Shown here piece after piece: positions 1 through 307 of a stretch of DNA of 16,122 nucleotides. Each line of letters opens with the position of its first letter. Position 1 is the first letter of the stretch. A program made the translations under genes and the position numbers. The stretch is from an archaeon. GTDB taxonomy: Archaea > Nanobdellota > Nanobdellia > SCGC-AAA011-G17 > GW2011-AR17. Under the pieces are notes generated by a model. The model did not search any database and was not told the DNA's origin. It worked only from the letters and a program-made list of their open reading frames with translations. The stretch lies in contig JAHFJF010000008.1 in assembly GCA_023245975.1 (NCBI GenBank), positions 1 to 16,122 on the forward strand, read 5' to 3'.

Positions 1-307
1 TAGTCATCTTTGATAGAGAGATTAATGACTTACCTTTCAAGAACTCCTTGCTAAAGCCTTCAGCCGGCCCAATGCAAAAGGTAAGATTTCTTTCAAGAAG
101 GATTTTTGAAAAATCCTAAGAATCCAACTGCTTTCCATGCTCGTCCAATACAAATAAAATACCCTTGATATTCTTTTCAATATCATCTTCTTTCTTTACA
201 TTAATTAACTCTAATAGATTGTATTTACCAATGCGCTTGGCGTATTCATTTATCCCTTCCAAGACATATTTCTCCCTTGGCTTTCCAACTAAGATAATCC
301 TTAACAT
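1..307 (-). CDS. rlmH: RlmH-like 23S rRNA pseudouridine-1915 N3-methyltransferase, partial, with in-frame TAG
   Basis: SPOUT-class methyltransferase (COG1576 type) acting on helix 69 of 23S rRNA. The start is ATG at 307, just after the TGA of the upstream gene, rather than the TTG further upstream. The first 63 residues read MLRIILVGKPREKY then a strand-helix-strand pattern ending FVLDEHGKQLDS, the usual RlmH N-terminal half. A TAG follows at 116-118. Past it the same frame continues as DFSKILLERN, then the SAM-loop motif IGPAEGF and the family signature SLSKMT before the window edge. No base need be added or removed to join the halves, so this is one reading frame broken by a single amber codon. 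It could be a nonsense mutation, a sequencing error, or amber decoding. The C-terminus lies outside the window. Identification is firm; functional status is open. Confidence 0.8.

Follow-up and report, generated by a model that had tools for sequence, protein, structure and literature searches.

Does the amber codon that interrupts an otherwise intact rlmH gene at the end of an archaeal contig mark a recoded stop, or does it reflect some more ordinary event of mutation or assembly? The window, by which we mean the whole stretch of 16,122 bases analysed, comprises bases 1-16122 of contig C72 (16,709 bases; window base 1 is C72 base 1), part of a metagenome-type assembly of 875,457 bases in 128 contigs that is 75.7% complete. 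A run of ten N (C72:16123-16132; L050:624-633) directly adjoins the last base of the window, and C72 is therefore a scaffold. On the plus strand, positions 116-118 read CTA, hence TAG on the minus strand, and this codon lies only 115 bases inside the raw end of the contig. Ahead of it on the minus strand, at 119..307, stand the N-terminal 63 codons of rlmH, a SPOUT methyltransferase gene, with the piece at 119-304 matching PF02590 at 35.4 bits (cut-off 27). Beyond it, at 2..115 on the same strand, 38 more in-frame codons run up to the contig end. A C-terminal rlmH piece on another contig, C68, also exceeds the PF02590 cut-off, at 97.5 bits, and a profile search of the genome returns the interrupted frame as a single PF02590 match with one TAG inside. 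Because the pieces on both sides match the family and the interrupted frame scores as one match, this is not a chance frame, and the initial annotation was right to place a real in-frame TAG within RlmH.

The profile search also located the assembly's second rlmH match, at the end of C68. Window positions 1..237 overlap the end of that contig (17633-17869) with 236 of 237 bases identical, the sole difference being window base 117, where C72 has TAG and C68 has TTG, a leucine codon. C68 carries the remainder of rlmH, complete at its C-terminus, where it ends in NEPYHRG followed by a stop. Judged from the alignment, the two contigs are best described as two versions of one rlmH locus. Two separate rlmH copies were considered and rejected, since each contig holds a partial gene cut at the contig edge and the parts common to both overlap. 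Very probably, then, the TAG is a single-base nonsense variant on a dead-end tip of C72 and not a recoded stop; it looks like ordinary variation or error rather than recoding.

A leucine at this position fits the family. The homologous proteins compared were the best 120 of 432, one of which (P0102) is the window's own truncated 63-residue product. Among these, the 12 closest RlmH sequences (67-78% identical) have L, L, I, V, V, I, I, I, L, M, R and V at the site, so that L, I, V or M occurs in 11 of the 12, while the other 107 have I in 33, V in 31, E in 29, L in 6, K in 3, M in 2, and D, P and Q in one each. Eight relatives identified from whole genomes have I, I, I, E, R, R, K and M. The expectation in the initial annotation of Glu, Gln or something similar at this site is thus borne out for a minority of sequences (E 29 and Q 1 of the 107), the position being occupied mainly by I, V, L or M. 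These eight come from a search covering the genome itself and 59 others, in which full-length rlmH lacking any internal stop, with a sense codon at the site in question, was found in 8 of the 59; one further genome has a partial rlmH close to the edge of a contig, and in another a match below the cut-off lies within a 573-codon frame. No rlmH match exceeded the cut-off in any of the four archaeal control genomes. RlmH is therefore patchy in this archaeal order, with the present genome, eight full-length copies and one partial copy over the cut-off among the 59 others (window 2-307; L001, L003-L010).

RlmH is the 23S rRNA pseudouridine-1915 methyltransferase, and in the portions of PMC5430550 drawn on here it is treated as a bacterial (eubacterial) enzyme, of which the C-terminal tail residues Y152, H153 and R154 are essential for catalysis in E. 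coli. The gene described here resembles that enzyme in that both of its pieces exceed the PF02590 cut-off and the C68 piece ends in a Tyr-His-Arg tail; unlike it, this copy resides in an archaeal genome. The archaeal assignment follows from the release factor aRF1, whose family profile (TIGR03676) is over its cut-off in this genome; of the 14 control genomes, the four archaea alone exceed it as well. We do not favour the view that rlmH came in with contaminating bacterial DNA, given that rlmH is found in related genomes and that the gene adjoins a CTP synthase whose named relatives are mostly archaeal. Where the 120 listed relatives of this CTP synthase bear organism names, these are mostly Candidatus Woesearchaeota, along with some Nanoarchaeota, unnamed archaea and one Deltaproteobacteria bacterium, at ~49-54% identity. 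Three rlmH and three CTP synthase homologues fall in clusters with matching longest contigs (7120, 6887 and 2626), which suggests that the two genes are neighbours in relatives as well. A scan of genome contigs gave 409 relatives, none of them close and the best 80 bearing Flavobacteriales or Bacteroidetes names, and a scan of viral contigs gave none; in both scans the records nearest this genome may have been left out.

An in-frame TAG in an archaeal gene is reminiscent of pyrrolysine decoding (PMC2933860), and the initial annotation had listed amber decoding first among three possible causes. Under that reading, pyrrolysine or a suppressor tRNA would insert an amino acid at the TAG and full-length RlmH would be made, a proposal that draws on the continuity of the RlmH frame across the codon and on the incompleteness of the genome. 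The sense codon in C68 already speaks against it, as does the general use of TAG. In the window, TAG does look rare, terminating none of the 13 non-overlapping ORFs that are 150 aa or longer (the earlier count was 1 of 18 genes), but this rarity does not extend to the genome sample: across 44 sampled stretches making up 37% of the assembly, TAG terminates 37 of the 234 ORFs of 150 aa or more (TAA 134, TGA 63) and 22 of the 125 that reach 250 aa. In the part of the genome sampled, TAG serves as an ordinary stop.

One observation runs slightly against this. Of the 37 TAG-ended ORFs, 8 continue in frame for 40 codons or more beyond the stop, as opposed to 19 of the 197 with other stops (Fisher P 0.049); the extension lengths of the two groups as a whole give a Mann-Whitney P of 0.16. 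In two of the eight TAG cases the two halves belong to different families (Lit then Lgt, and a Fis-type HTH then a HAD hydrolase), and in a third they look, by sequence, like an ADP-ribosylglycohydrolase and, after it, a NUDIX-type protein. One pair has a Pfam match in neither half, and four of the extensions are 44-51 codons long. The Lit and Lgt matches (lipoprotein intramolecular transacylase, PF07314, and prolipoprotein diacylglyceryl transferase, PF01790) adjoin one another at L142:18512-19930 (G000:C54), and both are bacterial-type lipoprotein enzymes, here present in an archaeal bin.

The decoding machinery was likewise sought. None of the 35 tRNA genes found in this 75.7% complete genome has the anticodon CUA; anticodons were assigned by ARAGORN for 32 of them and by eye for three intron-bearing genes, read as Tyr GUA, Ile UAU and Ile GAU. 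The tRNA-Leu with anticodon CAA (L037), the reader of TTG, is present. PylS reaches at best 33.9 bits in this genome against a cut-off of 178.15 and exceeds that cut-off in none of the 60 genomes, this one included (the profile is positive in 1 of 14 control genomes), and PylB reaches 24.1 bits against 348.2. Because the genome is only 75.7% complete, these absences are weak by themselves; the sense codon in C68 is not. Compared with pyrrolysine decoding (parts of PMC2933860), the present case thus differs in that no CUA tRNA was found, PylS and PylB are sub-cut-off and a sister contig carries a sense codon. Amber decoding was accordingly rejected on the strength of the C68 leucine codon, the sub-cut-off PylS and PylB matches and the ordinary TAG stops, and we would assign it next to no probability. 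Together with the intact relatives, this is the outcome that the initial annotation had named as refuting amber decoding, seen here in contigs rather than in reads. Were the TAG decoded after all, against this evidence, it would be a new case of recoding for these archaea. Nonsense mutation and assembly error, the other two causes that had been put forward, remain.

Of the intron-bearing tRNA genes, the one read by eye as Ile UAU lies at L034:1501-1610 (G000:C22:6959-7068). The same Ile codon is read in most archaea by a modified CAU tRNA.

How a lone nonsense codon might come to sit at a contig end is suggested by the geometry of the assembly. When a mixed population is assembled with a de Bruijn graph, contigs break at single-base variants. 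Exactly 120 bases (window 118..237) separate the variant from the C68 end, a length equal to the exact overlap of 120 identical bases shared by the other end of C72 with contig C23. Both ends of C72 and 43 stretches of other contigs, a sample of 37% of the assembly in which C42, C54 and C57 were covered short of their far ends, were compared with one another, and seven matches resulted. Three of them are slightly mismatched end overlaps: C58/C89 (143 bases, 2 mismatches), C73/C85 (166 bases, 3 mismatches) and C42/C77 (181 bases, 5 mismatches), with the first mismatch lying 120, 120 and 119 bases, respectively, from a contig end. The ten mismatches comprise five that are synonymous in the open frame and five that between them alter two residues; none makes a stop in it. 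Since C68 ends 120 bases past the TAG variant and the other mismatched overlaps share this geometry, we infer that the assembler probably used an overlap of ~120 bases and that its graph split wherever reads carried two versions, the TAG base being what split C72.

The likeness to de Bruijn contig breaks lies, then, in pairs of contigs whose ends are roughly one overlap length away from a single difference, at several contig ends. Two features depart from it: here the difference makes a stop codon, and the start of C72 lies 116 rather than 120 bases from the variant, a distance not expected of a simple bubble and one that counts against the explanation. On the preferred reading, the read set would have supplied two versions of one rlmH locus, one base apart, and the graph would have divided at that base, the leucine path with its complete C-terminus running to the end of C68 and the TAG path to the start of C72. 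If transcribed at all, the TAG version would meet an ordinary stop and give a 63-residue fragment. This product stops short of the Tyr-His-Arg tail present in the C68 version, and it should be inactive, as it lacks the C-terminal tail that is essential in E. coli RlmH (the relevant portions of PMC5430550).

The bin as a whole looks like a strain mixture, both from the slightly mismatched contig-end overlaps and from the ends of C68 and C48 (L051:1-1052, L166:1-1052), which overlap over 1055 aligned bases at 89% identity. The comparison of contig stretches also paired tRNA-Leu genes on C81 and C82, over 95 bases at 82%. Two tRNA-Thr genes, both with anticodon CGU, occur in this small genome (L015:643-714, G000:C33; L022:1194-1269, G000:C109), one of which could come from a different strain within the bin.

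Within the preferred explanation, the TAG version has two conceivable sources: a handful of erroneous reads, or a null allele that is rare and arose recently. The second of these, a true rlmH null allele segregating in the natural population, has somewhat less than an even chance in our estimation. It gains from the evidence that the assembly mixes variants, as seen in the three end overlaps with ten mismatches and in the C68/C48 pair. Such an allele could survive, because rlmH mutants are viable elsewhere (in E. coli and Lactococcus lactis, according to parts of PMC7056703 and PMC7938551) and the gene is patchy in the order, where just 8 of 59 related genomes have it in full length, and hence would seem dispensable. 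Set against this, the TAG variant stands alone in 237 bases, while the C58/C89, C73/C85 and C42/C77 overlaps have their 2, 3 and 5 differences packed into the last 23, 46 and 62 bases. The solitary difference tilts the balance toward error or a very recent mutation, and we slightly favour error reads as the likely origin of the TAG version.

A more particular origin has to be weighed in light of the sequence around the variant, which forms an imperfect inverted repeat at 99..117 whose arms are 9 bases long as read in the window and 8 as read in C68. A template switch within this quasipalindrome, in the cell or during library preparation, would have made the TAG by copying the other arm, a mechanism described for E. 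coli (in the part of PMC7202029 that bears on it). Arms of at least 9 bases would result from 4 of the 711 possible single substitutions of the overlap. The repeat was, however, noticed after the fact and the gain is one base only; moreover, one of the ten other contig-end differences likewise lies in a longer repeat in one version (arms of 4 as compared with 8), for which reason the lengthening is given little weight. We regard an origin by template switching as unlikely.

The finding itself, a nonsense variant on a contig tip, is of little importance. Its lesson is a practical one: where an in-frame stop occurs near a contig end, the first step should be to compare the site against the remaining contig ends of that assembly.

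An intein-like insertion in the release factor of this genome would be of interest in its own right. Its aRF1 (G000:C19, L187:175-1677), the only one over the cut-off in the genome, contains an insertion of 132 residues between GGQ and SAQRF that has the features of an intein. The insertion scores 54.8 bits with Pfam Intein_splicing (cut-off 35.8), the NCBIfam profiles intein_Cterm and intein_Nterm fall just over and just under their respective cut-offs, and solved inteins are among its 12 PDB sequence matches. These similarities point to a putative mini-intein inserted in the catalytic GGQ motif of an archaeal aRF1. Before splicing, aRF1 should be incapable of terminating translation, so that splicing could act as a switch. 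One might then imagine that the TAG is a real allele, partly read through because the mini-intein slows termination, with nonsense alleles being tolerated as a consequence; we consider this very improbable. In the open-licence literature we found no paper title on an intein in an archaeal release factor, which is no proof that such inteins are unpublished.

Across the order, 31 of 60 genomes, this one included, have an aRF1 match that breaks in two at profile position 172-175; in 28 it is unsplit (one of them partial), with none found in the one remaining genome. Six of the 31 split sequences were read (L187-L192): each has a Cys after GGQ, and an HN-Ser end is present, by pattern, in five. 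Outside the present genome the insertions read are of 130-507 residues. Pfam Intein_splicing is over its cut-off in each of the four of these six that were checked, two of which also contain a LAGLIDADG domain.
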